DNA of 25,863 bases from a virus, in IMG/VR virus record IMGVR_UViG_3300049434_000098, positions 1 through 25,863 of that record. One strand, 5' to 3'. The position numbers and the translations under genes were made by a program. The notes below the pieces were generated by a model. That model made no database searches and was not told the DNA's origin. It saw only the letters and a list, made by a program, of their open reading frames with translations. Each line of letters starts with the position of its first letter. Position 1 is the stretch's first letter. Positions 1,314 to 23,205 of the stretch are shown here, one piece after another.

Positions 1314-2795
1314 TTAAGAAAAGTTTTTCTTTAATACTTCATAGGCAGCGTTGATTTCTTTCATTTTTTTATCTGCTATTTCTTGGAATTCAGGCCCTAA
1401 ACCAGATACACGATCTGGATGATACATCTTAGCCATGCGCCTATAAGCGAAATTTATTTCTTCAATAGTTGCGCCTACCTCAACCTCTAGCACTTCGTAA
1501 GGACTTCTTTTATTTGCTCTGTTTTTAGGTGCGGCTTTCTCTTGTTTAGCTCTAGGCGGTTTTTTAGTCGATGCCCGTTGTGAAGAATATCTTTCAGGCT
1601 CTTCACTCCGGTATTTCTTGTAAGCTTGGCCCGATAGCAGGCCATCCAAAATTGCAGAGAACATCCCCCGGTCATATTCGAGTTTATATATCTGGTTTTT
1701 TCCTGAGTCTTTTTCAACGACTAAGCCATCGTCGTAAAGGGTATAATTAATGATTTTATTTAGCGGAACATTGGTAGTTTTATTGTTGCCATTAAAGAGC
1801 AATCTTTGGTCTGTTAAATAAAGCGTGCCGGAATCAATATAAGTCATTACATCTTGCGTGATGTAGTCACGATTCATGTATCCTGAGCGATAGCGTAGAC
1901 TTCCTATAATCTTTACGGATGCGCCAACGCCGCCATAGCGGACGGCTCTTCCCTTTCTTCTCATCTCATAATGATGGGCCGGTAAATACATGGCGCATAA
2001 TTCACCATCTCGCAATCGAATAGGGACATCTACGGCTGGCAAGTCTCCCTGAGATACACGCCAATAATATCTGAATTTTTCAAGGGCTATTTTTGAAGAA
2101 TCGTCAGATGTGGGAGCAATGCTTAAATTTCTTGCTAGGTTTGCGAGATTTCTTTCTTCTTCAGGCGAAAGTCGCAAGTCCTTTAAAGCATCATCAACCG
2201 CTTGTTGGTACAGCGGTTGTGCGTATCTTCGATAAATATCATCCGCAATCTCTTGAGGGATGCGAAGCTGTTTTGCTAGTTCGTCTAATTTGTCTTTTGT
2301 CTCAGGTTCAATAATTGATTGTGAGAGTCTGGCTTTAACTGCATTCTCGAACACAGGAGCAATTGTATTTTTTTGTAAGTAGGCTAGCTCTTGATCGCTT
2401 ATCTCAAAAATCGTCTGCAAATGCTGAATCTGGTGAGCCTCTTCATCTGTGATTTTTTGGTCGTTTGCGAAGTGTTGAAGAACCTTAGAGAAGAGCTTCA
2501 AAAAGTGAGGCTTTGAACCCTTAAAAGTAACTCCATATTTAGCTAGGATCGCTCTGATGATTTCAGGGGAAATGTGGGAAATATACATAGTAGCCAGAAG
2601 ATTTTGAATTTCACGATAGGCGTTCTCAGTAATTTCTTCCGACACTTCGCCAAAAATCCGCGCAATGAAACTCGGCTTTTTAACCTCTACCGTCGAAAGT
2701 CCATTCTTCTGAACAAACGTGTGGCCGCAACGCTTACACCTTTCTTGACTTGCGAAGTTGACGAGACTGCACTGAGGACACTTAACGCTATTCAT
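1314..2795 (-). CDS. Zinc-ribbon / TerB-like / PH-like / J-domain protein
   Basis: This 493-residue protein has an unusual domain order. An N-terminal zinc ribbon (Cys6, Cys9, Cys20, Cys23) comes first. A helical region (about 80-245) follows, with acidic DEEAHQIQ and LSPEEERNL segments resembling TerB-like helical domains. A beta-rich segment (about 260-385) with GTLYLTDQRLLF resembles bacterial PH/GRAM-like domains. A Lys/Arg-rich linker leads to a C-terminal J domain (about 432-493) with the HPD motif at 459-461. The J domain predicts recruitment of a host Hsp70 (DnaK). I chose the ATG at 2795 because it follows AAAAGG; an in-frame TTG at 2819 overlaps the upstream stop. The gene is visibly more AT-rich than its neighbours, suggesting separate acquisition (a moron). 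A defence or superinfection-exclusion role is possible but inferred. Confidence 0.85.
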   Translation of the reverse strand: MNSVKCPQCSLVNFASQERCKRCGHTFVQKNGLSTVEVKKPSFIARIFGEVSEEITENAYREIQNLLATMYISHISPEIIRAILAKYGVTFKGSKPHFLKLFSKVLQHFANDQKITDEEAHQIQHLQTIFEISDQELAYLQKNTIAPVFENAVKARLSQSIIEPETKDKLDELAKQLRIPQEIADDIYRRYAQPLYQQAVDDALKDLRLSPEEERNLANLARNLSIAPTSDDSSKIALEKFRYYWRVSQGDLPAVDVPIRLRDGELCAMYLPAHHYEMRRKGRAVRYGGVGASVKIIGSLRYRSGYMNRDYITQDVMTYIDSGTLYLTDQRLLFNGNNKTTNVPLNKIINYTLYDDGLVVEKDSGKNQIYKLEYDRGMFSAILDGLLSGQAYKKYRSEEPERYSSQRASTKKPPRAKQEKAAPKNRANKRSPYEVLEVEVGATIEEINFAYRRMAKMYHPDRVSGLGPEFQEIADKKMKEINAAYEVLKKNFS

Positions 2796-2815
2796 TGGGA
2801 AACCTTTTGTGAGAG

Positions 2816-3265
2816 TCAAACCCCGTATAGCTCTAAAACCTTTAATCTGAATTCAACCATCTCGCGCGTGTAACCGTGCTCGTCTTCAATTTCTCCGGCG
2901 AGCATAGAGCGCAACATAGGCTCTGGAATAAGCGCGATTGCAGCGAAAGCTTCAGCCTCAAACAAGACTTTCGACTCTTCTCTGACTTGAAAGAAGCTCA
3001 CGGATGCTGCCCGTTTCGGAGCGTGTAAGAAATGATGCGCGAGTTCATGCCAGGCGACGTGTAGCCAGCGCACGCCGCGCACCCTTGAATCTATGACGAT
3101 AAAGCGGCGACCCTTGCATAGCATGTAGAAACCGGGCACAAGCAAGGGCATCTCGACAACCTTAATCCGCTCGCGTCGGCAGATGCGGTAAAAGTCGGCT
3201 TCTGTCAGAGAGCGTGTGTTCAGGCCGGGCACTGATCCAAGTAATTTTGCGAGGGCGAAATACAT
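2816..3265 (-). CDS. ImmA/IrrE-family metallo-endopeptidase
   Basis: This 149-residue protein carries the zinc-protease motif HELAH at residues 73-77, followed by His78 and a downstream FEAEAFA segment (Glu105) typical of the third ligand in ImmA/IrrE proteases. In integrative elements such as ICEBs1, ImmA cleaves the XRE repressor to trigger induction. Here the XRE repressor lies about 450 bp upstream in the same orientation, so the same role is a reasonable inference. It lacks an N-terminal HTH domain, so DNA binding would be left to the repressor. The start ATG has no clear ribosome-binding site. The TGA lies 20 bases before the ATG of the J-domain gene, suggesting cotranscription. Confidence 0.88.
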   Translation of the reverse strand: MYFALAKLLGSVPGLNTRSLTEADFYRICRRERIKVVEMPLLVPGFYMLCKGRRFIVIDSRVRGVRWLHVAWHELAHHFLHAPKRAASVSFFQVREESKVLFEAEAFAAIALIPEPMLRSMLAGEIEDEHGYTREMVEFRLKVLELYGV

Positions 3266-3714: not shown

Positions 3715-4116
3715 CTATTTCTTACCTTTGCCCTTACCTTTATTGTCCGGCGGCTTCTTCGGTTTCTTAGGTCTGCGTCGTTGAATCTCGCTTCCTAGCA
3801 TCCTGACAGTGGCAAGCATTTCTGCCTTATCTTCATCCGACAGTTCCTCAAAACCCATGAAGGCGACATAGATTTCACTGTCAAAAGATTCTGCGTCTGT
3901 AAGGGATTTGCCCTCTGTGGCCGCTAAAACCTCTTTATATGGCACGCCCAATCCCTCTGAGATTGCCTCAAGCTTTTCTACAGACGGATTAGAGGCCGCG
4001 CCGCTCATAAGCTTGCTCAAGTAGCTGTGTGTCACCCCGCCGCCGCTCCGCTCCGCAATCCCGCGAAGCCTCAAGCTTGGGTTCTCCTTTAGCTTCTGGC
4101 GTAGATAGTCCGCCAA
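3715..4116 (-). CDS. XRE-family phage repressor (CI-like)
   Basis: This 133-residue regulator has an N-terminal helix-turn-helix beginning almost at the start codon (LRLRGIAERSGGGVTHSYLSKL, split as LRLRGIAER and THSYLSKL, about residues 14-38). An acidic middle and a basic Lys/Pro/Gly tail follow. It is the likely lysogeny repressor and presumably binds the palindrome at 4232-4253. I chose the TTG at 4116 because it follows AAGGAG at 5 bases and because the HTH fold normally starts at once. The only upstream ATG (4215) has no ribosome-binding site and lies inside the rightward promoter. With that ATG the protein would be 166 residues. It lacks an obvious LexA/CI-type peptidase domain, consistent with inactivation by the nearby ImmA-like protease. 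Confidence 0.85.
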   Translation of the reverse strand: MADYLRQKLKENPSLRLRGIAERSGGGVTHSYLSKLMSGAASNPSVEKLEAISEGLGVPYKEVLAATEGKSLTDAESFDSEIYVAFMGFEELSDEDKAEMLATVRMLGSEIQRRRPKKPKKPPDNKGKGKGKK

Positions 4117-4121
4117 GTTTT

Positions 4122-4127
4122 CTCCTT
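4122..4127 (-). promoter_or_regulatory. Ribosome-binding site that fixes a TTG start for the repressor
   Basis: On the minus strand AAGGAG is followed by AAAAC and then TTG. This is the best ribosome-binding site upstream of the HTH domain and argues that the first 33 codons of the ATG-initiated frame are untranslated leader. Confidence 0.6.
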
Positions 4128-4199
4128 GCTTCGCACGCACACCAAAAAGGTTAATATATTCAACGTTTCCCAGGCGAACATCTTTGGTGAATATTTTGC

Positions 4200-4228
4200 T
4201 TGACACAAAATTCATAGTTGGCTATTCT
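4200..4228 (+). promoter_or_regulatory. Rightward early promoter (sigma-70 type)
   Basis: A perfect -35 hexamer TTGACA (4200-4205) is followed by a 17-base spacer and a -10 hexamer TATTCT (4223-4228). Transcription should start near 4235, inside the palindromic operator, and read into the early operon. The hexamer match and spacing are seen directly; promoter activity is inferred. Confidence 0.72.
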
Positions 4229-4231
4229 GTG

Positions 4232-4253
4232 TGTGGTTCATATATGAACCACA
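4232..4253. promoter_or_regulatory. Perfect 22-bp palindromic operator
   Basis: The arms TGTGGTTCATA and TATGAACCACA are exact reverse complements with no spacer. The palindrome covers the predicted start point of the rightward promoter and ends directly before the AAAGGAG of the first early gene. A repressor dimer bound here would block initiation. I see only this one full copy in the window, unlike the multi-site lambda operators. Confidence 0.75.
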
Positions 4254-8174: not shown

Positions 8175-8181
8175 AACTAAA

Positions 8182-8221
8182 GAGCCGTGAGCGCGACCTG
8201 ACCAAAGGACGCTCACGGCTC
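8182..8221 (+). terminator. Intrinsic terminator or attenuator hairpin
   Basis: Perfect 12-bp arms GAGCCGTGAGCG and CGCTCACGGCTC enclose a 16-base loop, followed by AACTTTTC. The U-tract is short and displaced, so partial termination within the early operon is likelier than a full stop. Confidence 0.6.
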
Positions 8222-8247
8222 AACTTTTCACGAGAAAGGAAAGAACG

Positions 8248-9219
8248 GTGCAGAACATACCATCATCCACAACTTCAAATCAACAACCATCGCCGCGCGG
8301 TAAGAAAAAGAGTGCGAAAGACGAGCGCGTAAATTCCGCTCTCCGCTATGCGCTTTTTATGCATACAGGCTCGCAAGAGTCTTGGGAAAAACTGATGGCA
8401 GCAGGCGCAAGCGGTGAAACGATCTCCCACTATCTGGTTGACGAGTTCGGAGACGGCGGAGGCTCTCAGACTGAAGAGGGAATCCAGTTCGCTTACGCGG
8501 GCTTGCCGGTCCCGCGCTTCTGGCTCGACTGTTCAAGTCAATACACGACTGCGAAGCCGACCTTACAGGAAGGTCGGCTCGTCAAGCGCGTGCGCGAGCT
8601 ATTGCAGATTCCAGAATTGAAGGCTCTCGACGATACCGCCGCAAATAGCGATGCTTCAGAAAAGGCGGCTGCTCAGAACTATGACGCGCACGAGTTCGTG
8701 CCGAAATCGGATAGCAAGACTATCTGTGCTCTTTGCTTTCAAGGGCGCAGAGGCAAGCCGCATCGTGCATGGAAAGAAGCGCAGAGCGGCTCGACCATCG
8801 CAACTTCCGGCGATGAGTCCGGGACATCCACCGTGACAGACCAGGCAGACGCCGACGCTACGCCGTCACAACTTACACCCACCATCTTCACAAAAGAAAT
8901 CGAAGTCGAATTGTCAGACGCTGACTACAAAACCAAGTCGCGCCAGCTTGCCTTTCTTCGCGTCCAGATCGAAGAGCTACAGGCTGAGAAGAAAGCGACT
9001 GACGAAGGCTATAAACAGAAGATTGGCGGGCTTGAAGAGCAATGCGCGGAACTCTTTCGCTCAATTCGCAAAGGGCGTGACACGCTCGAATTAGAAGTGT
9101 TCGAGCGGCGCGACTTTGAACTTAAAGTCGTTGAAATCGTGCGCGCTGATACGAACACGGTTGTCGAGTCGCGCGAGATGCAGGAGCGCGAGCTACAGCA
9201 AAAATTACCGTCAATCTAA
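8248..9219 (+). CDS. Hypothetical protein with C-terminal coiled coil
   Basis: This 323-residue protein is not recognised. The polar N-terminal 30 residues precede a globular part (NSALRYALFMHTGSQESWEK through VPRFWLDC). A low-complexity linker with LDDTAANSDASEK follows, then a small CALC segment with a downstream His (residues about 155-175). The last 110 residues form a long coiled coil (FLRVQIEELQAEKK, KIGGLEEQCAELFRSIRKG). The GTG start follows AAAGGA. The linker DNA is nearly identical to a stretch in the adenine methyltransferase gene. Confidence 0.7.
   Translation: MQNIPSSTTSNQQPSPRGKKKSAKDERVNSALRYALFMHTGSQESWEKLMAAGASGETISHYLVDEFGDGGGSQTEEGIQFAYAGLPVPRFWLDCSSQYTTAKPTLQEGRLVKRVRELLQIPELKALDDTAANSDASEKAAAQNYDAHEFVPKSDSKTICALCFQGRRGKPHRAWKEAQSGSTIATSGDESGTSTVTDQADADATPSQLTPTIFTKEIEVELSDADYKTKSRQLAFLRVQIEELQAEKKATDEGYKQKIGGLEEQCAELFRSIRKGRDTLELEVFERRDFELKVVEIVRADTNTVVESREMQERELQQKLPSI
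8626..8659 (+). repeat. Dispersed 34-bp repeat, copy 1
   Basis: This segment matches 13099-13132 at 30 of 34 positions by eye. It encodes LDDTAANSDAS in the linker of the coiled-coil protein, in the same reading frame as copy 2. Confidence 0.65.
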
Positions 9220-9235
9220 TTTTCAAGGAGCCAAC

Positions 9236-9520
9236 ATGAGCACAGAAAGAATTATCCCGAAAGTTTTGACGGGACACGGTAAAGACTTGTCGGAAGCTAT
9301 CCGTGACGCCACGTTTGAATTAATGAGCCTCCATGAAAGGCCGGAACACGCAGGCTCCCCGTGCGGCATGAATCGCATTTCACACGTCGCATGGATAGCT
9401 CACTCGCTAGGTGTTGGATCGGCACACCTTCAGAAGCTGATGGCCGCTATCGCCATGTACGAAGCGGATTGCCCGTGCGGAGTGCCGACGCTCGCGCCCG
9501 AGCATTTCGAGAATCATTAA
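9236..9520 (+). CDS. Hypothetical early protein
   Basis: This is a 94-residue protein with AAGGAG 6 bases upstream of its ATG. It is mainly helical and contains four Cys and several His (SPCGMNRISHVAW, EADCPCGVP), which might bind metal. I do not recognise it. In-frame codons upstream run into the previous gene and lack a ribosome-binding site. A 9-bp hairpin follows its stop. Confidence 0.65.
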   Translation: MSTERIIPKVLTGHGKDLSEAIRDATFELMSLHERPEHAGSPCGMNRISHVAWIAHSLGVGSAHLQKLMAAIAMYEADCPCGVPTLAPEHFENH

Positions 9521-10183: not shown

Positions 10184-10255
10184 TTCATCATCATCATCTC
10201 TTTCGGGGCGTGGGTGTCGAGTAAGTGCATGAACGGGCGGCTTTCGAGGCTTGGA

Positions 10256-11266
10256 ATGGGATTGATGATGATTTTTGAGAGAAATTTTATGCAGCCGGAA
10301 ATCCTAAAACTCAAAATTGGCACGGCTGACAAGCTCTACCACTTCTCAAAAAGTGGCAAGCCGATCATGTATCACGTCGGAATATCCGGCGGCAAAGATT
10401 CGACGGCCTTGCTGCTTTGGATGGTCAATGAAAGCGGCATACCACATGAGCAGATTAGCGTCACCTTTGCCAATACGCACAACGAAGCAGACGAGACCTA
10501 CACTCACGTTGAAATGCTATCCGAGCGCGTCTTTCTTATTCAATGGCTAGAGCCGGAGATGGGTTTCTATGAACTCGCGCGACATAAGAAAAGGTTTCCT
10601 TCTCAACTAGCACGATTCTGTACTCAATTTCTAAAAATGAAGCCCGCCAAAGCTTTTATTGATGCGCTTCTAGAGCAAGGCTACGAAGTTATAGCTGTTA
10701 GTGGTGTGCGCGCAGATGAGTCAGACGAGCGGCGCGATTTACCTGAATGGGGTGAGCCGATGAACTCATACTTTGGGCTTTGGGAGTGGAGGCCGCTACT
10801 TCGCTGGCGAGTCGAGCAAGTTTTCTTGCTGCACGTGCGATACGGCATTCCGCGCAATCCGCTTTACGACGCTGGCGCGCTACGCGTCGGCTGTTTCCCC
10901 TGCATCAATTCGCGCAAACCTGAAATCAGGATGATGTCTCGGAAATTCCCGCGCTATCTAGACCGCGTTCGAGCGATGGAGGGAGGCGTCCAAGAAGCCA
11001 ACGCTAACTCAACTTTCTTCCAAAGATTCAAAATTCCGTTGGTTATGCGAAGCAAGGAAATCATTGCTAAGAACGGCGAAAAGATGAGGGTAGCAACTGT
11101 TGACGATGTTGTTCGCTGGTCGAACACGACGCGCGGCGGCAAGGTTTATTTGAAGTCCTACAAAGATCAACCGCAGCAACATCTCATCGAAGACCTTGAC
11201 AGCGATGTCGTGTTAACGAGTGACGACACGGGCGTCTGCTCAAGTCAATTTGGAGTGTGTGAATAG
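10256..11266 (+). CDS. PAPS-reductase / DndC-like ATP pyrophosphatase
   Basis: This protein of about 336 residues carries the PP-loop SGGKDST (44-50) of the phosphoadenosine-phosphosulfate reductase/DndC superfamily. Other features are GVRADES (150-156) and three conserved Cys, in RFCT (122) and GCFPC (213 and 216), that could hold an Fe-S cluster. The C-terminal ECGLH of true assimilatory CysH is absent, so sulfate reduction is less likely than thio- or other modification of DNA or a nucleotide. Phage relatives commonly neighbour DNA methyltransferases, as here. Start options are GTG 10214, ATG 10229, ATG 10256 (GAGG 6 bases upstream) and ATG 10289 (GAGAG upstream). No other dnd genes are visible. 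Confidence 0.85.
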   Translation: MGLMMIFERNFMQPEILKLKIGTADKLYHFSKSGKPIMYHVGISGGKDSTALLLWMVNESGIPHEQISVTFANTHNEADETYTHVEMLSERVFLIQWLEPEMGFYELARHKKRFPSQLARFCTQFLKMKPAKAFIDALLEQGYEVIAVSGVRADESDERRDLPEWGEPMNSYFGLWEWRPLLRWRVEQVFLLHVRYGIPRNPLYDAGALRVGCFPCINSRKPEIRMMSRKFPRYLDRVRAMEGGVQEANANSTFFQRFKIPLVMRSKEIIAKNGEKMRVATVDDVVRWSNTTRGGKVYLKSYKDQPQQHLIEDLDSDVVLTSDDTGVCSSQFGVCE

Positions 11267-11280
11267 GGAGGTGAAATCTT

Positions 11281-11736
11281 ATGCCGTCCAGATTCGATAG
11301 AGACACCATCCGAGAGTATTTCGAGTATTGCCAGCGCGCAGGCAAAAAGCGCGTGACGAGCATTAACGCGCTCACAGATCACGCTCACAAGACGGCCAGC
11401 AACGATGAAGAGATACGCGAATGGCTTTTCCCTGCACAGCAGGCGCAGACAATGACTTGCCCGACCTGCAAAGGTTCAGGCCAAGTGCAAAGGCGCGCAG
11501 CTTCGGATGAACCTTGCTACATGTGCAAGGGCACGCGCTTACAACGATTCAATCCGGCCTCAGATGAAGATGAAGATTGGCCGTGTCCGGTGTGCCAGAG
11601 CGCAGAGTTTGACGAGCAGGTGCAATCTCGCGGCGGTATTCGTGAGCCTGCTATTCGGTTTTCAGGTAGAGGCGGGCTTGTGAGCTTAAAGGATGCGAGG
11701 TTGTTGCAGGGAAATAACGATCCTGAAGCGGCCTGA
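11281..11736 (+). CDS. DnaJ-type zinc-finger-like protein
   Basis: This 151-residue protein holds three CxxC pairs: CPTCKGSG (Cys60/63), CYMCKG (Cys79/82) and CPVC (Cys102/105). The CxxCxGxG form of the first pair matches the DnaJ cysteine-rich zinc domain, but the pairs are too few and irregular for a full DnaJ domain. The N-terminal 55 residues are helical and basic. The ATG follows GGAGGTG, one of the strongest ribosome-binding sites in the window. It probably acts as a small nucleic-acid- or protein-binding factor; I cannot be more specific. Confidence 0.75.
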   Translation: MPSRFDRDTIREYFEYCQRAGKKRVTSINALTDHAHKTASNDEEIREWLFPAQQAQTMTCPTCKGSGQVQRRAASDEPCYMCKGTRLQRFNPASDEDEDWPCPVCQSAEFDEQVQSRGGIREPAIRFSGRGGLVSLKDARLLQGNNDPEAA

Positions 11737-12869: not shown

Positions 12870-13085
12870 ATGGTGAAAACACGACGAGTCGTTTTTAGTT
12901 TCGATGATAGAAGCCTTGAATCGCTTGAAAGAATGATTGCTCAGGGCCGCGCGCCTTTGGCGCAAAGTTCTTCAAGCTATTCGGGGCAATACAAAGAAAT
13001 AGAAGTTACGAATCCAGGGACAGGCGAGACGCGCGTGATTGTAATTCCCATTGAAGATTATGCAGGACCTACACACCACAAATAG
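12870..13085 (+). CDS. Small hypothetical protein
   Basis: This 71-residue protein is unrecognised. It has a helix (SLESLERMIAQG), a Ser-rich linker and two strands (KEIEVTNPGTGETRVIVIP). The ATG follows GAAGGAAA. Its last 26 bases overlap the start of the adenine methyltransferase gene, so the two are probably translated together. Confidence 0.6.
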   Translation: MVKTRRVVFSFDDRSLESLERMIAQGRAPLAQSSSSYSGQYKEIEVTNPGTGETRVIVIPIEDYAGPTHHK

Positions 13086-13854
13086 CGATACCGGATCGCT
13101 CGACGACACCGCCGAAAGTAGCGATGCTGCAGCAACGTCGAATGTGGTGAGCGCGCCAGGTCTAAAATCTTATCCAGGCGGCAAGTCAGGCGCGGGCGTC
13201 TATCAATCAATCATCTCTCTCATGCCGCCTCACGAAACTTTCATAGAGGCATTTCTCGGCTCAGGCGCGATTATGAGAGCAAAGCGACCAGCCGTGCGCA
13301 ACATCGGCATTGATTTGGACGAAGCTGCTATCAACGCCTTTCCCGGCGATGCAGTACCAGAGCTAAATCTCATTAACGGAGATGCGCTTACTATTTTACG
13401 TACACCGTTTTGGTATGACGAAGACTATAAACGCACGCTCGTCTATTGCGATCCCCCCTACCTACTTTCTACCCGTCGGTCGTCTCGCCCTATCTACCGG
13501 TACGAGCTATCAAGTGAAGCTGAGCACGTTAAGCTTTTAGAAGTCCTGATGAACTTACCGTGCATGGTTATGCTCTCAGGCTATCGCTCAGAGCTATATG
13601 ACCGCGCTCTGTCTCACTGGCGGCGCGCAGAGTTTCACACGACGAACCGTGCGGGCAAGCGCACGCTCGAATGCGTGTGGATGAACTTCACAGAGCCTTT
13701 GGAGCTACACGATTACAGATTCTTAGGAAAAGGTTTCAGGGAGCGCGAGAGGATTAAGAGAAAGCGTTTGAGGTGGCGTGCGCGGCTCGAAAGAATGCCC
13801 GCGCTTGAGAGGCACGCGCTGATGGCGACGATTGAAGAGTTGCGAAAACAGTAA
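13060..13854 (+). CDS. dam-like: DNA adenine-N6 methyltransferase (D12/Dam class)
   Basis: This 264-residue enzyme would transfer a methyl group from S-adenosylmethionine to adenine N6. It shows YPGGK (38-42), the SAM-binding FLGSGA (65-70) and catalytic DPPY (131-134), in the D12-class order. The 35 residues before YPGGK form a polar linker, LDDTAESSDA, encoded by the dispersed 34-bp repeat. The C-terminus is very basic and helical (FRERERIKRKRLRWRARLERM). The ATG at 13060 is preferred over a TTG at 13051. No restriction endonuclease gene is adjacent, so it is an orphan enzyme, plausibly protecting phage DNA or controlling gene expression. The recognition site cannot be read from sequence. 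Confidence 0.9.
   Translation: MQDLHTTNSDTGSLDDTAESSDAAATSNVVSAPGLKSYPGGKSGAGVYQSIISLMPPHETFIEAFLGSGAIMRAKRPAVRNIGIDLDEAAINAFPGDAVPELNLINGDALTILRTPFWYDEDYKRTLVYCDPPYLLSTRRSSRPIYRYELSSEAEHVKLLEVLMNLPCMVMLSGYRSELYDRALSHWRRAEFHTTNRAGKRTLECVWMNFTEPLELHDYRFLGKGFRERERIKRKRLRWRARLERMPALERHALMATIEELRKQ
13099..13132 (+). repeat. Dispersed 34-bp repeat, copy 2
   Basis: This segment matches 8626-8659 at 30 of 34 positions. It encodes LDDTAESSDAA in the N-terminal linker of the adenine methyltransferase, in the same frame as copy 1. Confidence 0.65.
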
Positions 13855-14106: not shown

Positions 14107-14916
14107 ATGCTCGTCTTGTCTCTCTTTCCCGGAATAGATTTGCTCGGTAGAGGTTTCGAGCTAGAAGGCATGTGCATTGTGCGCGGCCCAGATAAGCTTT
14201 GGGGCGGCGACATCAGAAGCTTCCACGCCCCGCCAGGACTCATTACCGGCCTTATAGCAGGCTCTCCCTGTCAAGACTTCTCTCTAAAGCGTCGCGCGCC
14301 TCCAACCGGCGAAGGATTAGAACTCCTGCGCGAATTCGGGCGCGTCGTCTTTGAATCACAGGCTGCATGGTTTCTGCTAGAGAATGTTCCTACCGTTCCT
14401 GATATTCAGATAGAAGGCTATACAGTCCAACGCTTTGACTTGAACTCGCGCGAGTGCGGCGCATCTCAATCCCGCCTGCGCCATTTTCAATTCGGCTCCA
14501 AAGAGGGGCTTGTTATCTCTCCACACCGAACGAAGCCGAAAGGAAAAGCAGAGCCGATCTGTCTGGCAAGTGAAGGCGAGAGCACGGACAGGCGCAGCTT
14601 CGCGGACTTTTGCGAGCTTCAGGGCTTGCCGCGCGACTTCGACTTGCCGGGCTGGTCTATTGCTGCGAAGTATCGCGCTGTAGGGAACGGCGTTCACGTC
14701 GAGGTTGCGCGCACCATTGCCCGCGCGATCCGTGACGCCACGTGCGGCGGGAACTGCCGTCGAATCACAGATGTTCGCCTGTGCGCGTGTAATTGTGGTC
14801 GCATCTTGACGGGGAGACAAAAGGCGGCGACGGCTGGCTGTCGAAAGCGATTAGAGCGAGCGCGCAAAGAAGTGTGCCCCTCACGCCATCCTCCACTATC
14901 GAGCGGTCACGTTTAA
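14107..14916 (+). CDS. dcm-like: DNA cytosine-C5 methyltransferase with C-terminal Cys cluster
   Basis: This 269-residue enzyme has the ordered C5-methyltransferase motifs: SAM-binding LFPGIDLLGRGFE (6-18), the catalytic GSPCQDFS (Cys55), ENV (92-94), QSRLRHF (121-127) and GNGV (193-196). The stretch between the QSRLR motif and GNGV, where the target-recognition domain lies, is only about 65 residues, so the enzyme is compact. The last 60 residues add a basic Cys-rich module (Cys213, 217, 226, 228, 230, 245) resembling a small zinc finger (CACNCGRILTG...GCRKRLERAR). No endonuclease is adjacent, so it is an orphan modification enzyme. The ATG has only weak ribosome-binding sequence. Confidence 0.9.
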   Translation: MLVLSLFPGIDLLGRGFELEGMCIVRGPDKLWGGDIRSFHAPPGLITGLIAGSPCQDFSLKRRAPPTGEGLELLREFGRVVFESQAAWFLLENVPTVPDIQIEGYTVQRFDLNSRECGASQSRLRHFQFGSKEGLVISPHRTKPKGKAEPICLASEGESTDRRSFADFCELQGLPRDFDLPGWSIAAKYRAVGNGVHVEVARTIARAIRDATCGGNCRRITDVRLCACNCGRILTGRQKAATAGCRKRLERARKEVCPSRHPPLSSGHV

Positions 14917-15543: not shown

Positions 15544-15581
15544 AAATAAGAAATCCCCTAAATATAAACTCTTCCTTGTCA

Positions 15582-15604
15582 GAGGCAATTAAGCCTCATC
15601 TTTT
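15582..15604 (+). terminator. Weak intrinsic terminator
   Basis: A 5-bp stem GAGGC/GCCTC with loop AATTAA is followed by ATCTTTTC. The stem is short, so efficiency is probably low. Confidence 0.35.
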
Positions 15605-15625
15605 CTCAAGAAGGAACTCGCTAAC

Positions 15626-16114
15626 ATGTTATCTCGCACGGACACGCCCGCACGCGCCCGCCGAAACACACGCCTTAACTCTGCCAAGCAAGACACAGCT
15701 TCCAACGTAAACGAGTGTCCGCGCGAGATTCCGGCTTCGACACCGCACTATAACTCCTTCGGACATATCCGCGATCCGAAGCTGCGCCGCGCGAAAGAAT
15801 ATGAGCAGCATCTTTTAATCCTGAAAGATATGTTTCCTCAGTACGGCGCTGGGATTGATGAACAAATTGCATATGCAAAATCTCAGCAGGATAGAAACCA
15901 CGTCTCAGACCGCGACCGCGTTATAAAGCAGCTTGAGTCTTGCCCTTTGACGTGCGCCGAAGTCGCGGAGGATTTGAATATGCCGCACGCGACCGCTTAC
16001 AAGATTTTGCGGGCCTTTGCAGAGTGCGGTTTGGTTATCATTGCGCACCGGCCCAGGCGCGACGGTAAGAAACCTCTCTGCGTTTATTCACTCTCGCATA
16101 GCCGCTCTCTATAA
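15626..16114 (+). CDS. Winged-helix DNA-binding regulator
   Basis: This 162-residue protein has a polar, probably disordered N-terminal 45 residues, a helical middle (KEYEQHLLILKDMFPQYG) and a C-terminal winged helix (about 96-155). The latter reads RVIKQLESCPLTCAEVAEDL, then MPHATAYKILRAFAECGLV and a basic wing (HRPRRDGKKPLCVYSL), as in MarR/IclR-like folds. It sits near the end of the early operon, where phages often place the late-gene activator. That role is an inference from position. The ATG follows AAGGA. Confidence 0.75.
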   Translation: MLSRTDTPARARRNTRLNSAKQDTASNVNECPREIPASTPHYNSFGHIRDPKLRRAKEYEQHLLILKDMFPQYGAGIDEQIAYAKSQQDRNHVSDRDRVIKQLESCPLTCAEVAEDLNMPHATAYKILRAFAECGLVIIAHRPRRDGKKPLCVYSLSHSRSL

Positions 16115-16302: not shown

Positions 16303-16338
16303 GCCCCTACTCTCTTTCTCGGAGAGTAGGGGCTTTTT
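16303..16338 (+). terminator. Strong intrinsic terminator closing the early operon
   Basis: Perfect 12-bp GC-rich arms GCCCCTACTCTC and GAGAGTAGGGGC enclose a 7-base loop and are followed by TTTTT. This is the clearest rho-independent terminator in the window and separates the early operon from the virion operon. About 90 bases without a recognisable sigma-70 promoter lie between it and the next gene, so the late promoter may depend on an activator. Confidence 0.9.
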
Positions 16339-16657: not shown

Positions 16658-17182
16658 ATGAGACTGAAGAAAAAGCAAAAAGAGTTTGTCTTGAAGTGCG
16701 TCGGCGAAGGGCTTGAGACGGATGAAATCAACGCCCGCGCGTCGCGCTGTAAGCCTGCGTTCTCTGTCTCGCGCCAGCAAGTGGATTTCTATAGAGCATC
16801 GCGCGGCGTGCAGATAAAAGAGATTGCCGCGACTGATGAGATGGAAGCTCTGCGCTCTGGCCTTGCGCTTCGCTCTGAGCGCGTCGCGCGTCTCGAAAAG
16901 CTATTCAATCGTGTCGAGACAGACTTACTTGAAAACAACCTTGTCTGGCTTCCGCGCAAGCGTGCGCTTGGGAAAGGCAAGGACGCAATCGTTATTGACG
17001 AGTTACACCTCAATGCGGCGGAAATGAAGATTTACCGCGACCTGCTAGACGACGTTGCGAAGGAAATGAACCAGCGCACCTACCAGATGCGCGAGTCTCT
17101 GCCCGAAGTCGAAGAAAGCACGGATGAACTGAAGATCACCGTCGCCTATGAAGAAAAACCGAAACAAGCGACCGAAGAATAA
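16658..17182 (+). CDS. terS: Terminase small subunit-like protein
   Basis: This 174-residue protein starts with an HTH-like segment (KEFVLKCVGEGLETDEINARA then SVSRQQVDFYRASRGVQI) typical of phage DNA-recognition subunits. A long helical region with ERVARLEKLFNRVETDLL and a conserved YRDLLDDVAKEMNQRT segment follow. I recognise this pattern from small terminase-like proteins next to large terminases. It would bind the packaging site and regulate the motor. It overlaps the large subunit gene by 35 bases and starts 2 bases after the previous stop, without its own clear ribosome-binding site. Confidence 0.8.
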   Translation: MRLKKKQKEFVLKCVGEGLETDEINARASRCKPAFSVSRQQVDFYRASRGVQIKEIAATDEMEALRSGLALRSERVARLEKLFNRVETDLLENNLVWLPRKRALGKGKDAIVIDELHLNAAEMKIYRDLLDDVAKEMNQRTYQMRESLPEVEESTDELKITVAYEEKPKQATEE

Positions 17183-18401
17183 CATCCGTCTCGTGCTGCC
17201 GAGCTTGCACACCGGGCAGCAGACTGTGATGGACACGCACGCCAGATTCAATGTCTTGGCGTGCGGGCGTCGCTTTGGCAAAACAACGCTTGGCACGAAC
17301 CTTTTAATGCCGCCGATGCTCGAAGGCTTTCCCGTCGCATGGTTCGCTCCCACCTATAAATTGCTTTTGGAAGTTTGGGATGAGTTTGAACGACTGCTCG
17401 CGCCCGTCACCCGCAAGAAAGACTCGCAGCAAAAGCGCATCAAGATTTACGGCGGCGGCTCTATCGAATTTTGGTCGCTCGACTCCGGCACGGTCGCGCG
17501 CGGTCGAAAGTATAAGCGTGTTGGCATTGACGAAGCGGCGATGGCCGCGAATCTCGAAACGCAGTGGCAGGAAGAAATCCGCCCGACGCTCGCCGACTAC
17601 ATTGGCGATGCGTGGTTTTTTTCCACTCCGAAGGGCCGCAACTTCTTTTACAAATTGTTTGCGCGAGGGCTTGACGAGCTTCAAAAGAAGTGGCGCAGCT
17701 TTCAGCTTCCTACGCGCGTTAATCCCTACATCGCAGGCTCTGAGATTGACGAAGCCGAAGAGGAATTGCCGTCAGATACTTTCGAGCAGGAATACCTTGC
17801 GCGCTTTCTTGAGAACGCAGGCTCCGTCTTTCGCAACATTCTTGCGCGCATGACGAAAGCTTTAACCGTTCCCTCTGAACACGTCGGACACACAAAGGTG
17901 CTGGGCGGCGATTGGGGCCAGAAAGACGATTTTACAGCCCTCTCAGTCGGCTGTGTCGAGTGTCGCCGCGAATTAGAGCTACTTCGCTTTAACAAGATCG
18001 GCTGGGCGTTTCAGCGCGCGCGCATTGCTGAACTCTATAAGAAGTGGGATGTGACATTCGGGCTGATGGAAACAAACTCTATCGGCTCTCCAAACCTTGA
18101 AGCTTTGCAGGCTGAGGGCTTGCGCCTCGCCGGTTTCGAGACTACCGCGCAATCTAAATCACCTCTGATTCAGAGCCTGGCACTCACTTTAGAAAACGAG
18201 CCTTTTCTATTCGTGGACGATCCGCAAGGGACAATCGAATTAGAAGCTTATGAATCGAAGCGAAACGCGAACACTAACCGCATTACTTATAGCGCGCCGC
18301 GCGGGATGCACGACGACACGGTTATAGGCCGCGCGCTCATGCGTGAGGCTATAGAGCGTTTCAAGGTAAGCAGGGCCGAACACGGCGAATCACTCTGGTA
18401 A
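17148..18401 (+). CDS. terL: Terminase large subunit
   Basis: This 417-residue DNA-packaging motor has an N-terminal ATPase with Walker A CGRRFGKT (39-46), Walker B VGIDEA (Asp128, Glu129) and the FSTPKGRNFFY motif (158-168). The C-terminal RNase H-like nuclease has GGDWG (Asp255), METN (Glu308) and GMHDD (Asp389/Asp390). It would cut concatemers and pump DNA through the portal. Length and motif set are complete. The ATG lies within the small subunit gene, so translation is probably coupled. The portal gene follows after 15 bases. Confidence 0.95.
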   Translation: MKKNRNKRPKNNIRLVLPSLHTGQQTVMDTHARFNVLACGRRFGKTTLGTNLLMPPMLEGFPVAWFAPTYKLLLEVWDEFERLLAPVTRKKDSQQKRIKIYGGGSIEFWSLDSGTVARGRKYKRVGIDEAAMAANLETQWQEEIRPTLADYIGDAWFFSTPKGRNFFYKLFARGLDELQKKWRSFQLPTRVNPYIAGSEIDEAEEELPSDTFEQEYLARFLENAGSVFRNILARMTKALTVPSEHVGHTKVLGGDWGQKDDFTALSVGCVECRRELELLRFNKIGWAFQRARIAELYKKWDVTFGLMETNSIGSPNLEALQAEGLRLAGFETTAQSKSPLIQSLALTLENEPFLFVDDPQGTIELEAYESKRNANTNRITYSAPRGMHDDTVIGRALMREAIERFKVSRAEHGESLW

Positions 18402-18416
18402 ATCAGGAGAATAACA

Positions 18417-19847
18417 ATGAATAACTTTCTAAATGGCATCACAAATAGATTCTTAAACCTCTTTCGCGGGCAATCTATCGCTGGCGGGAACTCTGAAGCT
18501 ATCGCGCGCCTATCAGCCGCCGCAAACGCTCTTACTTATTTCGAGGGCTACGCGCCGCAGACGCTCAAGGTTGAATTTGATAAGCCTGACGATAATGTTC
18601 ACATCAACTATGCAGAGGTGATTGTCAGCAAGGGCGTGGCTTTCCTCTTCGGAGAGAATCTGAAAATCAGTATCGGTACGGATGAAGACAAATCCGGCGA
18701 GGAACTGTTAGAGCAGCTTTGGCCGGAAGACGCACGCGCGGAAGATTTCACCGAAGCTGCGACGGAAGGCGGAATCTCAGGCGATGTGTATCTAAAGATT
18801 TCTATTCAGGCCGACGGCAAGCCCCGCGTCACGGTTGGCGACCCGAACACGTATCAGGTGGAGACCGACCCGCATGACGTGACGCGCGCCCGTCGCTTCG
18901 TCTGTCAGTATGAGATTCCGGGCACAGGCGACAATTCCGCTGTTTATAGATTTCAGGCTCCGAGCGGCAACAAAAACATCCTCTACAAAGAAGAGACGAC
19001 GCGCGCCGCAGACGGTAAGTCATGGCAGATTCAGGAATTTCATTCTTACAATGGCGGCAATTCGTGGTCGCCTGTCTCTGATGGCGTGACGTGGAACTTC
19101 TCATTCGCGCCTATCTTCCATTGCAAGAATCTGCCGAACTCGAAATCTTTTCACGGTCGCGCCGATCTGCGTCACGACGTGCTGCGCCTTATCTCTGCCA
19201 TCTCTCGCATTGATAGTCTCTGCAATAAGGTTGTGAGAGCGCATTCGACTCCGAAGCCTTACGCGACCGGACTCCGCAAGCAAGACTTGGAAATGGGAAC
19301 GGACAAGATGATGTACTTGCCCGCGCAGGGGATTGGCAATATTGAGCCGAAGCTGGCCCTGCTCGAAATGAAGGGCGACCTGTCAGGCGCGCGTGAATTT
19401 CGTAAAGACTTGCGCGAGGGACTTGCCGAAATGACCAAAGTGCCGGAAGTCGCCAGCGGTAAGCTTCCGAAGGTGGGCGCGATCCCGGGCGTTGCGCTCA
19501 GAATTATGCACGGACCCTTGCTCGATCAAACGAAGGTCAAGCGTCGCTTGTATGGCAAGATGATTAAGGACGCGGTTATTGCGCTTCTGACGGTTGCGGG
19601 TAAATCAGAGTTGGCTAAATCGGTACAACTTCATTGGGGCGACCCGCTGCCTTCAAACGAAGTCGAAGCTGTTGCTGTGGCAGAAGGAAAGAAAAGGCTC
19701 GGATTCAGCGAGCAGACGCTAATCTCTGAATTAGGCGGGGATGCTGCGAAGGAAAAGGAGCAACGCGCAAATGATTCGCAGACGATGGCGAGCACGATGC
19801 TGGGAGCGTTTGACAACGGCGCGGGCGCAGACCAGCTTGCGGCGTAA
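18417..19847 (+). CDS. Portal protein (SPP1 gp6-like)
   Basis: This 476-residue protein matches the SPP1-type portal family, which forms the dodecameric ring at the capsid vertex. Visible features are an N-terminal amphipathic region, the VHINYAEVIVSKGVAFLFGE segment, the central beta-rich part (VYLKISIQADGKPRVTVGDP), ISRIDSLCNKVVRAHSTPKP and a C-terminal acidic/Ala tail. The position after terL supports the assignment. The ATG follows AGGAG. A 15-bp hairpin starts 14 bases after the stop. Confidence 0.9.
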   Translation: MNNFLNGITNRFLNLFRGQSIAGGNSEAIARLSAAANALTYFEGYAPQTLKVEFDKPDDNVHINYAEVIVSKGVAFLFGENLKISIGTDEDKSGEELLEQLWPEDARAEDFTEAATEGGISGDVYLKISIQADGKPRVTVGDPNTYQVETDPHDVTRARRFVCQYEIPGTGDNSAVYRFQAPSGNKNILYKEETTRAADGKSWQIQEFHSYNGGNSWSPVSDGVTWNFSFAPIFHCKNLPNSKSFHGRADLRHDVLRLISAISRIDSLCNKVVRAHSTPKPYATGLRKQDLEMGTDKMMYLPAQGIGNIEPKLALLEMKGDLSGAREFRKDLREGLAEMTKVPEVASGKLPKVGAIPGVALRIMHGPLLDQTKVKRRLYGKMIKDAVIALLTVAGKSELAKSVQLHWGDPLPSNEVEAVAVAEGKKRLGFSEQTLISELGGDAAKEKEQRANDSQTMASTMLGAFDNGAGADQLAA

Positions 19848-19860
19848 ATGATGAATGATG

Positions 19861-19897
19861 AATAGGGTATCTATAGGTAATGTATAGATACCCTATT
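19861..19897 (+). terminator. 15-bp perfect hairpin after the portal gene
   Basis: Arms AATAGGGTATCTATA and TATAGATACCCTATT flank the loop GGTAATG, followed by CTTTGAAAATTTATT. It may attenuate transcription or protect or process the mRNA between the portal and head genes. The absence of a good T-tract and the need to express downstream head genes argue against full termination. Confidence 0.6.
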
Positions 19898-20059
19898 CTT
19901 TGAAAATTTATTACTTCGGAGGGCTGCGAAGGCCGTTTGCTAGTCGGCAACCTCGGCGCAAAGCCGTTGGCAGAGTCTGTGCGTTTAGTCCCTTAACCTT
20001 CGACTCCCGGAGCAATTTCAGCGTGAGACACCGCCCAGCGCAACCAACTAAATTATATC
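19898..20059 (+). other. Gene-free, potentially structured leader
   Basis: These 162 bases hold no convincing gene. Short hairpins are visible: GCCG/CGGC around 19932-19948 and CGGC-GCAAA-GCCG around 19954-19966. An imperfect repeat of GCCGTT also occurs. TTCGACTCC near 20007 recalls a tRNA T-loop, but its stem does not pair. No ribosome-binding site precedes the next ATG. It is probably the 5' leader of the head-protein gene. Confidence 0.4.
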
Positions 20060-21052
20060 ATGCAGGACATCTACTCAATCGCTGAATCACAAAAGCAGGA
20101 GCTTCTAGCGCGAGAGCGCAAAGTTGCATCCGAGCTTGTTCGTGCTTATGGCCTTGCCTACAGCCGCATTCAAGCCCGCGTAGCTGAACTGACCGCGCAG
20201 ATTGAAGCTGCAAAACTTCACCCTGAAATTTCCGCTTCATCCTTCCTTTACGAGCGCGACCGTCTCAGAAATCTTAAAATTGAAATAGAGCGCGAGTTGC
20301 GCCGCTTCTCTCGTTTGGCTACAGAGCGCGTCACGAGCGAGCAGGGCTTGGCTATAGAAACAGCTACAGGCGACGCAGAGCGACTCGTGAGCGCGTCTAT
20401 AGAAGAGACAGGCTCTACCTCTGGCCTCTCGTTTGGTGCACTCAATTCTGAGGCGGCTGCCGCTATCGTCGGATTCGCAGGTGACGGCCAGCCCTTGCGC
20501 CTGCTCTTTGACAAGATCGCTCCGCAGATGGCGACGGCGATTTCTGATGAGCTTGTCTCTGGCGTTGTAGAGAATGCGCCAGCGCGAGTGATTGCATCTC
20601 GGATACGTGAAAAGTCAGGAATTGGCCTGGCGCGCTCGCTACTTATTGCGAGACAAGAGACGCTCAGAGCTTATCGCACGGCAACCTTAGAAAACTATAA
20701 AGCTTCCGGCGTCGTCACGCGCTGGCGTTGGCTCGCCTCGCTCGACACGCGAACCTGCATCATTTGCTTTTTGATGGATGGCAAGGAATTCCCGCTCGCC
20801 GTGAATCTTAATTCTCATGTTGGTTGCAGATGTTCGCTCGTGCCTGTTACCGCACAGACTCCGCCGCGTAAAACAGGAATAGAGCGTTTTCAGGAATTAG
20901 AGCCGGGCGTGCAGAAAGATTTGCTTGGGTCCGCGAAGTATATAGCGTATCAGGCCGGGAAGTTTCAGCTTGAAGATTTAGTGGGCGTCGGCTACTCACC
21001 GCAATGGGGCACGGTTCGCTATCAGAGAAGTTTGAAAGATTTGCTCGCCTGA
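20060..21052 (+). CDS. Minor head / head morphogenesis protein (SPP1 gp7, Mu gpF-like)
   Basis: This 330-residue protein begins with long helices (1-100). Residues about 195-263 contain the family signature: ARQETLRAYRTATLENY, WRWLASLDTRTCIICFLMDG, then HVGCRCSLVP. Cys233, Cys236, His253, Cys256 and Cys258 could hold a metal. Members associate with the portal and are needed for head assembly or DNA ejection. The C-terminal QAGKFQLEDLVGV...WGTVRYQRSL block is also typical. The ATG lacks an obvious ribosome-binding site and lies after a structured leader. Confidence 0.88.
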   Translation: MQDIYSIAESQKQELLARERKVASELVRAYGLAYSRIQARVAELTAQIEAAKLHPEISASSFLYERDRLRNLKIEIERELRRFSRLATERVTSEQGLAIETATGDAERLVSASIEETGSTSGLSFGALNSEAAAAIVGFAGDGQPLRLLFDKIAPQMATAISDELVSGVVENAPARVIASRIREKSGIGLARSLLIARQETLRAYRTATLENYKASGVVTRWRWLASLDTRTCIICFLMDGKEFPLAVNLNSHVGCRCSLVPVTAQTPPRKTGIERFQELEPGVQKDLLGSAKYIAYQAGKFQLEDLVGVGYSPQWGTVRYQRSLKDLLA

Positions 21053-21184
21053 TTGGATCGGCTCTCGTCATATCCGGCGAGACGATCACTCCGGCACCTC
21101 ATCGCCATTTCCAGTGTTACTCGATCCACGTCAATTCAAGCGATAGTCGACGCCGTAAAAATAAACCCCACGCAATCTCTAAAA

Positions 21185-21242
21185 TCTCCAATTGTGAAGC
21201 CGCATATCAAGCGGCAATTAAATTCTAAATTCCAATTGGAGA
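21185..21242 (+). promoter_or_regulatory. Nested hairpin that can hide the scaffold ribosome-binding site
   Basis: The outer 10-bp arms TCTCCAATTG (21185-21194) and CAATTGGAGA (21233-21242) are perfectly complementary. An inner hairpin GCCGC/GCGGC (21199-21215) lies between them. The right outer arm contains GGAG, the only good ribosome-binding sequence of the next gene, so folding would reduce its translation. The rest of the 200-base gap from 21053 shows nothing else I can name. Confidence 0.6.
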
Positions 21243-21252
21243 CTTTTTGATT

Positions 21253-21816
21253 ATGGACGAACCTATTACCACAACCACAGACACCACAGGCACACCGGCA
21301 CCCGTCGTCAATGATGGCGATGCTGGAGCGCCGCCCGTTACGCCACCCGTCGTGCCGCCAGTAGTTGAGCCGCCCGCCGCGCCTGTCGTGCCGGAAGGCT
21401 ATGTTAAGGCTGAAGACGTTGAAACGGAGCGCACGGCCCGCACCGCCGCAGAGACGGCACGTACCGAAGCGGAGACGCGCGCAAGTGCCGCTGAGGCTCG
21501 CGCGCGACAGGCAGAGATTAATGCTGCCGCGCAAAAATTAGGCTTTAACGACCCCGCCGATGCTGCGCTCTACGTCGGCGCGGACGTGACAGACATTGAA
21601 GGCGCGCTGGCAAGCGTGATTGAAGCGAAACCTTATCTGAAGAGAGCGGTTGAAGTCGTCACGCCGCCCGTTACTCCGACCAGCCCGACGAATCCTGCGC
21701 GCACAAGTTCTGCCGCTCCTACTTTCACGCAGGCGCAGATTTCGGACCGCACTTTCTGGGCCGCGAACAAGCCAGCAATCATGCAGGCGATGAAGGAAGG
21801 CAGAATCACCAGCTAA
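21253..21816 (+). CDS. Scaffold-like head assembly protein
   Basis: This 187-residue protein lies between the head morphogenesis and capsid genes, the usual scaffold position. Its N-terminus is Pro/Val/Thr-rich and disordered, its middle is an Ala/Glu/Arg coiled coil (ETERTARTAAETARTEAE) and its C-terminus carries the RTFWAANKPAIMQAMKEGRI helix, probably capsid-binding. These are typical of phage scaffolds. GGAG lies 11 bases before this ATG but 5 bases before an in-frame TTG at 21247, so translation could begin two codons earlier. No protease gene is visible nearby. Confidence 0.8.
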   Translation: MDEPITTTTDTTGTPAPVVNDGDAGAPPVTPPVVPPVVEPPAAPVVPEGYVKAEDVETERTARTAAETARTEAETRASAAEARARQAEINAAAQKLGFNDPADAALYVGADVTDIEGALASVIEAKPYLKRAVEVVTPPVTPTSPTNPARTSSAAPTFTQAQISDRTFWAANKPAIMQAMKEGRITS

Positions 21817-21835
21817 ACCAACCTCGACTTACAAC

Positions 21836-21888
21836 AAAGTGTCACCAAAAGTTACAGCCTCGGCTTGTGTAACTTTTGGTGACACTTT
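21836..21888 (+). terminator. 21-bp perfect hairpin before the major capsid gene
   Basis: The left arm 21836-21856 (AAAGTGTCACC then AAAAGTTACA) is an exact reverse complement of the right arm 21868-21888, with an 11-base loop that itself contains GCC-TC-GGC. It ends in ACTTTATAG, a weak U-tract. It may be an attenuator or an RNase III-type processing site. It is 75 bases upstream of the capsid ATG. Confidence 0.75.
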
Positions 21889-21907
21889 ATAGTGTGCTCC
21901 AAGACAG

Positions 21908-21934
21908 AGCGGCTCTATACGTTGGGCCGCTTTT
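21908..21934 (+). terminator. Second terminator-like hairpin before the capsid gene
   Basis: The 6-bp arms AGCGGC and GCCGCT flank a 12-base loop, and the stem runs into TTTT. It is terminator-shaped but weak. It follows the 21-bp hairpin by 19 bases and ends 29 bases before the capsid ATG. Confidence 0.5.
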
Positions 21935-21963
21935 CATATCCACCACCTGCAAAGGAGCACCGT

Positions 21964-22887
21964 ATGTCAACCAATATTACTGGCGCAGTTGCAACTACCG
22001 CCGGATTCGTCCCTACAATCTGGGCGCAGACGGCTCTGGACGTGCTGCGCGCAAACATCGTGTTAGCCAAGCGCGTCGCGCGAGATTACAAATTTGACGA
22101 TCAACAGACGCAGGGCAAGACAATCAACATCGCGTATCCTGGTAAGTTCACCGCGCGCAAGAAAGCGGCGAACACGCCAGCGACAACGCAAGTGCCCGCT
22201 GGCGGAACTTTCATTCCCGTGACACTCTCAGAGCACAGTTACGTTGATTTCATCATTGAAGACGTTGCGGAAGTACAGTCTAACGCGCCGCTGATGATGC
22301 GCTACGTTAAGCCCGCGATTATCGCACTTGCGGAGACGCTCGAAGACGACCTATTTACGCTCGTCTCTTCTTTCACGCACAGCATCGGCGCGTCAGGAAC
22401 GGACGTGAGCCGCGCAACAATTGTTTCGGCTCAGAAGCAATTGAATCAGCAGAAAAATCCGAAGACGGACCGCACGCTTGTGATTTCCGATAAAGACCAA
22501 GCGGGACTTCTGAATGATCCGACGCTCGCCTACTATTTCGCCAACGTCCAACCTGAAGCTGTGCGCGAGGGAATAATCGGCCACATGTACGGCTTTGATA
22601 TTTTCCCGTCACAGCAAGTGCCCGTCGTTGCTGGCACGCCCGACTCGACAAAGAATTTCGCGTTCCATGAAGACGCGATTGTGCTGGCGACGCGTCCCTT
22701 CAAAGGCATACCGGAAGGCGCGGGCGCGGGCGCGCAGAGTTACACGCAGGTTGACGAAGAGTCTGGCCTGCTACTGCGCGTGATCTATCAGTACAGCATG
22801 GCAGAGCGCGGCGCGCGTGTCGGCTTCGATATGCTGTATGGCTTTACGAAGCTGCGCGACGAAGCGGGCGCAGTCGTCCTCTCGTAA
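21964..22887 (+). CDS. Major capsid protein (P22-coat-like pattern)
   Basis: This 307-residue protein is the likely HK97-fold shell subunit. It starts MSTNITGAVATTAGFVPTIW and contains the QTQGKTINIAYPGKFTARKK, VTLSEHSYVDFIIEDV, DDLFTLVSSF and ERGARVGFDMLYGF segments seen in P22 gp5-like coat proteins. Position after the scaffold supports this. The ATG follows AAGGAG, and two hairpins lie just upstream. It ends 9 bases before a small gene with AAGGAGG. Confidence 0.9.
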   Translation: MSTNITGAVATTAGFVPTIWAQTALDVLRANIVLAKRVARDYKFDDQQTQGKTINIAYPGKFTARKKAANTPATTQVPAGGTFIPVTLSEHSYVDFIIEDVAEVQSNAPLMMRYVKPAIIALAETLEDDLFTLVSSFTHSIGASGTDVSRATIVSAQKQLNQQKNPKTDRTLVISDKDQAGLLNDPTLAYYFANVQPEAVREGIIGHMYGFDIFPSQQVPVVAGTPDSTKNFAFHEDAIVLATRPFKGIPEGAGAGAQSYTQVDEESGLLLRVIYQYSMAERGARVGFDMLYGFTKLRDEAGAVVLS

Positions 22888-22896
22888 GGAGGACAC

Positions 22897-23205
22897 ATGC
22901 CGCGCTACATAGTGAACCCCGGCAATGCGGTGCACTCGGTGGAGGAGAGTGAGTTCAAACGGCTCACTCTCTTGCCGGGGTATCGTGAAGCCACAACGGA
23001 TGAGATAGCCGGATGGTATGCCATGCAAGGCTTGAGCGTGCCGCCGGATTTGCAGCCTGACCGCCAACCCCTAACAGACTCTCAGGCAACGGCCACCGAC
23101 GTTGACGATGCGAGTAATAACAAAAACTCATCTAAGCTCCCCGATCTTCCAACCGGGAACGCTCCAAAGCAGCCTCGAAAGAATCGTCGCGCAAACGGCG
23201 TTTGA
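22897..23205 (+). CDS. Small virion-operon protein, possible head decoration or connector
   Basis: This 102-residue protein has a folded N-terminus (MPRYIVNPGNAVHSVEESEFKR, then LLPGYREATTDEIAGWYAMQG) and a long polar, basic tail. The N-terminal pattern is common in small proteins after phage capsid genes, but its role is unknown. AAGGAGG precedes its ATG. The tail overlaps the next gene by 98 bases in another frame. Confidence 0.7.
   Translation: MPRYIVNPGNAVHSVEESEFKRLTLLPGYREATTDEIAGWYAMQGLSVPPDLQPDRQPLTDSQATATDVDDASNNKNSSKLPDLPTGNAPKQPRKNRRANGV

Follow-up and report, generated by a model that had tools for sequence, protein, structure and literature searches.

Phages whose head genes form one operon require several hundred capsid proteins for each portal, a difference that is usually ascribed to translation rates. 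In phage lambda, pR'-tR' is a promoter-terminator unit that is passed by antitermination. Units of this kind, with an intrinsic terminator after the promoter and processive antitermination, have been described for AlpA-alpB (PMC7969949) and GafZ-GTA (PMC11150451). In SPP1, the late gene clusters are bounded by stem-loops, and the only characterised late promoters, PL1 and PL2, lie upstream of gene 1, with no related late promoter found elsewhere (PMC6316719). Phage T7 (NC_001604) places a promoter, phi10, at 22904, between the end of gene 9 at 22873 and the start of gene 10 at 22967.

We have analysed the 25,863 bp of a fragmentary phage record in IMG/VR (hereafter, the window). Judged from its sequence, its scaffold/capsid gap most likely holds a capsid-dedicated promoter followed by a structured leader. 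This cassette shares its layout with the phi10/gene 10 leader of T7, namely a dedicated promoter in the scaffold/capsid gap, a 5'-proximal stem-loop, a U-rich stretch, a strong Shine-Dalgarno (SD) sequence and the capsid gene; no sequence relation is claimed. T7 differs in using its own single-subunit RNA polymerase, whereas the cassette promoter is sigma70-like, and in having a stem that begins at +1 without an immediate T tract. No single-subunit RNA polymerase was found among the window proteins scanned, which cover part of the ORFs of a fragmentary record. With lambda pR'-tR', AlpA and GafZ, the cassette shares a promoter and then a stem of the intrinsic terminator type, which those systems carry in leaders of late or lysis operons. 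It differs from them in that its terminator-shaped stem lies nearly at the predicted 5' end of the transcript, and in being internal, placed before the capsid gene. SPP1 has the same portal type and stem-loops at its late clusters, but PL1 and PL2 are its only characterised late promoters.

Rather than a series of hairpins acting together along the operon, the finding is best read as a capsid promoter whose leader hairpin has the shape of a terminator, a known kind of arrangement in a new form. If the reading is correct, a conserved capsid promoter and leader, independent of the capsid type, would be a simple answer to the capsid requirement for this group, and would parallel the solution of T7 while being reached with host-type promoters. 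Since the cassette spans about 150 nt, it is directly testable in a reporter.

Gene content of the window

An integrase gene (1-1251, minus strand), a helix-turn-helix repressor gene (3715-4215, minus strand) and an early promoter with a classical 22-bp palindrome (4232-4253) suggest that the phage is temperate. A protein with a C-terminal DnaJ domain (1314-2819, minus strand) adjoins an M78-type peptidase and the repressor. This temperate-looking phage also carries a PAPS reductase-like gene (10214-11266) and two DNA methyltransferase genes (13051-13854 and 14107-14916). A winged-helix protein is encoded at 15626-16114, just upstream of the late operon. Ahead of this gene (15544-15640), there is a short GAGGC..GCCTC stem, then ATCTTTTCTC and an SD sequence, a layout that resembles the capsid leader.

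The late region includes the gene for the terminase large subunit (17148-18401) and, on the plus strand, those for the portal protein (18417-19847; Pfam SPP1_portal, E 1.7e-19; phrog_64), a MuF-like minor head protein (20060-21052; Pfam Phage_Mu_F, E 1.5e-11), a scaffold-like protein (21253-21816) and the major capsid protein (21964-22887; P22 coat/phrog_283). The family search gave no match for the scaffold-like gene, which has homologues at the same place in relatives. The late genes 3' of the capsid are tightly packed, and one of them has a head-tail adaptor match. The untranslated gaps between the virion genes measure 212 nt (portal/MuF), 200 nt (MuF/scaffold) and 147 nt (scaffold/capsid).

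Conservation of the scaffold/capsid gap

Relatives were collected by capsid and portal searches. The cassette group has ten members, all uncultured phages: a discovery set of six (the window, L003, L008, L020, L027 and L098) and four found via the portal search once the motif had been defined (L121, L125, L126 and L127). In all ten, the scaffold/capsid gap is 116-161 nt long and has the same order of elements, with a sigma70-like promoter, a stem-loop, in most members a T-rich tail, the SD region and the capsid ATG. L004, L005, L007, L024, L026, L029 and L036 form a second group, more distantly related, in which the capsid gene abuts the scaffold gene with almost no gap; L004, L026, L029, L036 and L097 instead have a hairpin directly 3' of the capsid gene. 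In Streptomyces phage Spocter, Mycobacterium phage Krypton555 and Microcystis phage Mae-JY09, cultured relatives with approximately 25-30% identity in capsid or portal, the scaffold/capsid gap measures about 14-59 nt and lacks the cassette. Genomes labelled as Armatimonadota and Chloroflexota yielded just distant portals of the second clade.

In the portal tree, every cassette carrier falls in one clade, and the sister of this clade, L100, has no scaffold/capsid gap. L123 nests among the carriers, and its contig stops before the gap. The capsid tree divides the carriers over two very different capsid types, approximately 20-26% identical; the capsids of the four members found later are only about 20-26% identical to that of the window. 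The cassette is therefore retained while the downstream capsid gene changes. This speaks for a regulatory unit and against a mere side effect of the capsid coding sequence. A reading made from the window sequence alone had placed points at which protein output is reset at the junctions of the virion genes. For the scaffold/capsid junction this proposal is supported, as position and structure are kept in ten phages and the changes in the stem are compensated. With a promoter-like sequence at this site, however, output would be reset by fresh transcription initiation together with a structured leader, and not by RNA hairpins alone.

The putative capsid promoter

The putative promoter, Pcap (21865-21893, plus strand), consists of a -35 hexamer TTGTGT (21865-21870), a 17-nt spacer and a -10 hexamer TATAGT (21888-21893), with a predicted transcript start near 21900. 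The motif was first spotted by eye in the six discovery members. Searched on both strands of the 25.9-kb window, the pattern TTGnnn-N17/18-TATA(G/T)(A/T) matches Pcap only; it occurs once in the scaffold/capsid gap of each of the other five discovery members, and elsewhere there is one stray match in approximately 208 kb, both strands. At the same place, the later members have TTGGTA-N18-TACAAT (L121), TTGACA-N18-TATAAG (L125), TTGTCT-N17-TACAAT (L126) and TTGACT-N18-TATAAG (L127). All ten gaps thus contain a -35 element starting with TTG, a -10 element of the form TATA.. or TACAAT, and a spacer of 17 or 18 nt.

The gaps were also scored with a generic sigma70 matrix of the E. coli type, which was not trained on these sequences and is not specific to the host. 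The best -10 element by this matrix lies 87-93 nt before the capsid ATG in eight members and 76 and 101 nt before it in the other two. With the distance preset, the four later members gave a combined P of 1.7e-7, relatedness ignored; the members are related and not independent samples, so the P values overstate their independence. Scored singly and without position, the gaps reach just P 0.005-0.24, and the case for the promoter rests for this reason on position and repetition. Control gaps gave no such promoter signal (P 0.24-0.96). The 17-18 nt spacers contain no element common to the members. An SP6-like promoter, which the 3' arm of the upstream dyad described below presumably resembles, was rejected, as no RNA polymerase was found among the scanned proteins and the likeness is not common to the relatives.

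The predicted leader stem-loop and the capsid ribosome site

Downstream of Pcap, a stem-loop termed HP2 (21909-21930, plus strand) has a 7-bp GC stem, a T-rich tail (TTTT, 21931-21934) and a terminator score of 17.8. A stem of this type follows the -10 element in all ten members. In eight it begins 9-18 nt downstream, corresponding to approximately +4 to +13 relative to the predicted start; the predicted leader is 64-89 nt long. The stems of L125 and L127 overlap the -10 box, which puts the predicted start inside them. The sequence 3' of the promoter-like box folds better than its shuffles in every member (z -2.2 to -7.5). The stem sequences vary widely between members, with compensated changes at five pairs in L003/L020/L027 and at three pairs in L125/L127, and no pair is broken.

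T residues cluster beside the stem far beyond what shuffles give (Fisher P 9e-15) and are packed against it in eight of the ten. By the d'Aubenton-Carafa score, HP2 is positive in nine members, and with the clustered T residues it has the form of an intrinsic terminator; the exception is L008, with a weak leader stem, no T tract and a score that is not positive. Further downstream, the capsid SD sequence AAGGAG (21952-21957, plus strand) lies inside AAGGAGCACC, which is kept upstream of the capsid ATG in eight of the ten members. Sequestration of this site, by pairing of GTGCTCC (21894-21900) with GGAGCAC (21954-21960), was considered and rejected, being strong in the window and L098 only and weak or absent in the others.

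Proposed function of the cassette

We propose that the gap is a conserved capsid-gene cassette, made of a promoter and a leader stem-loop, with a lean towards a promoter-proximal terminator as the role of the stem-loop; we hold this reading as a whole with about even confidence. Its parts would be a host-type sigma70-like promoter, a stem-loop that in most members lies a few nucleotides past the predicted start, an adjoining T-rich tract, a brief stretch without structure and the SD sequence of the capsid gene. If, as we infer, the promoter is active, the cassette would late in infection add capsid mRNA beyond the operon read-through from the portal side, and these extra transcripts would raise capsid over scaffold and portal. 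In the lysogen and in the early phase, HP2 would block capsid transcription as a promoter-proximal intrinsic terminator, and in the late phase RNA polymerase would pass it with a phage antiterminator, as at lambda pR'-tR'.

The same promoter cassette may instead carry HP2 as a 5'-proximal stem-loop that protects the capsid mRNA and leaves a U-rich, open stretch for ribosome loading, as in the gene 10 leader of T7. This is a genuine possibility, though it falls short of an even chance. The gene order and the place are those of T7, with phi10 between the scaffold gene (gene 9) and the capsid gene (gene 10), and the T7 leader folds as a 5'-terminal stem before its U-rich stretch and SD sequence. 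HP2 also lies near the predicted 5' end in the eight members given above, and mRNA is stabilised by 5' hairpins in E. coli and B. subtilis (PMC3997798). However, several unpaired 5' nucleotides would weaken such protection, and T residues packed so closely against the stem look terminator-like and not merely like a U-rich leader.

For HP2 itself, the terminator role and a leader role of the T7 type appear roughly equally likely, with a slight lean to the terminator. The T tract favours termination, while the placement and the lack of a recognised antiterminator among the scanned proteins count against it: without antitermination, it would be odd for a terminator to separate a dedicated promoter from the gene that it serves. 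The only match of this kind in the proteins scanned is a marginal one to phrog_6060 ('Q-like') at 11281-11736 (E 0.011, over a short stretch). The Q, AlpA and GafZ systems have a cognate antiterminator and an element between -35 and -10, neither of which was recognised in the scanned proteins and spacers. The winged-helix gene just ahead of the late operon would be the obvious candidate regulator. A more specific proposal is tentative and somewhat unlikely: the cassette would be a capsid-specific antitermination switch, in which the terminator directly after the internal promoter is overcome by a phage-encoded antiterminator that loads within the structural operon, and which a temperate siphophage clade has retained through capsid exchange.

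The dyad over the putative promoter

The putative capsid promoter is overlapped, including its -35 element, by a perfect 21-bp inverted repeat, HP1 (21836-21888, plus strand; arms 21836-21856 and 21868-21888). Its sequence occurs once in the window and varies strongly among the relatives. HP1 may be an operator or may simply be lineage-specific. The former would make it a DNA element, a phage-specific dyad over the promoter for a repressor or late regulator, and not an RNA element, and we regard this as unlikely. Differing dyads do lie over the -35 element or spacer in most members (the window, L003, L008, L020, L121 and L126), HP1 scored as a non-terminator in the relatives that have one, and the early promoter of this phage carries a classical palindrome. 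These dyads, however, do not recur elsewhere within their own records, their position relative to the -35 element varies, and the upstream fold in L121 and L127 is no better than that of shuffles. The operator reading concerns HP1 only and fits either role of HP2.

Hairpins at the other junctions

The portal/MuF gap contains a perfect 16-bp stem (19860-19875/19883-19898; hairpin 19860-19898, plus strand) that is weakly terminator-like (d 5.8). The MuF/scaffold hairpin (21185-21242, plus strand) has an outer stem of 10 bp (21185-21194/21233-21242) and an inner stem of 5 bp (21199-21203/21211-21215). The 3' arm of the outer stem includes the scaffold SD sequence GGAG (21238-21241), so that in this phage alone the stem may hold back translation of the scaffold gene. 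No other short-range perfect stem in the whole window is as long as the 21-bp or the 16-bp one; among 200 dinucleotide shuffles of the gaps, none equalled either of them and one equalled the 10-bp stem. The sequence-only reading had reported the nested 10-bp and 5-bp stems and the 21-bp stem as we find them; the virion-gap stems it described are real and beyond chance, with two sizes adjusted, from 15 to 16 bp (portal/MuF) and from 6 to 7 bp (HP2).

In most relatives, the genes at these two junctions overlap or lie close together. L020, L027, L123, L125, L126 and L127 have a very short portal/MuF gap or none at all, and that of L121 is shorter and has a differing hairpin; the MuF/scaffold gap is approximately 15-25 nt in L003, L020, L027, L121, L125, L126 and L127. 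By this comparison, both hairpins are peculiar to the lineage of the window and outside the capsid cassette. Stem conservation with compensatory changes, which had been suggested as a check, is seen at the scaffold/capsid site and is lacking at the other two in most relatives, and the idea of a single RNA-based dosage programme along the operon is not supported by this comparison. In L008 the portal and scaffold genes are separated by a 90-nt gap (9189-9278) with no MuF gene, and none was found in the 20.9 kb searched; its TerL belongs to phrog_38, against phrog_2 for that of the window.

It is quite improbable that each of the three junction stems acts as a partial terminator or a processing site that steps transcript or protein amounts down or up along one operon: all three exceed chance and two have weakly positive terminator scores (portal/MuF, 5.8; scaffold/capsid, 12.2), but most relatives lack two of these gaps, the MuF/scaffold stem scores as a non-terminator (-16) and would make the SD sequence of the scaffold gene inaccessible although scaffold is needed in quantity, and a stem after the capsid gene and others in non-virion gaps break the pattern. 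Long stems are not specific to the virion junctions. A gap in the early region (8175-8247) contains a perfect 12-bp stem at 8182-8221 (z -7.2), and a canonical terminator with a d score of 46 lies at 16303-16333. A known structured RNA or a tRNA in the gaps was rejected, as they gave no Rfam match at the gathering score and no ARAGORN match. Mobile repeats and a multi-copy operator were rejected as well, since no stem sequence is repeated within its record. When IMG/VR was scanned for exact copies of an 18-nt stem arm, only two single matches came up, both in contigs that showed no homology to the head genes of the window.

The sequence-only reading had noticed no hairpin at the tightly packed junctions after the capsid gene. 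A nested hairpin (22916-22981, plus strand; outer stem of 10 bp, 22916-22925/22972-22981; inner stem of 9 bp, 22945-22953/22963-22971) in fact begins 29 nt past the capsid stop, within the opening codons of the gene that follows; the stretch of 110 nt past the stop folds with z -3.8. At the later junctions, the absence of hairpins is uninformative because there is almost no untranslated space. L008 has DNA near-identical to 22916-22981 (z -4.7), while its portal protein is just 54% identical to that of the window, which suggests a recent exchange.
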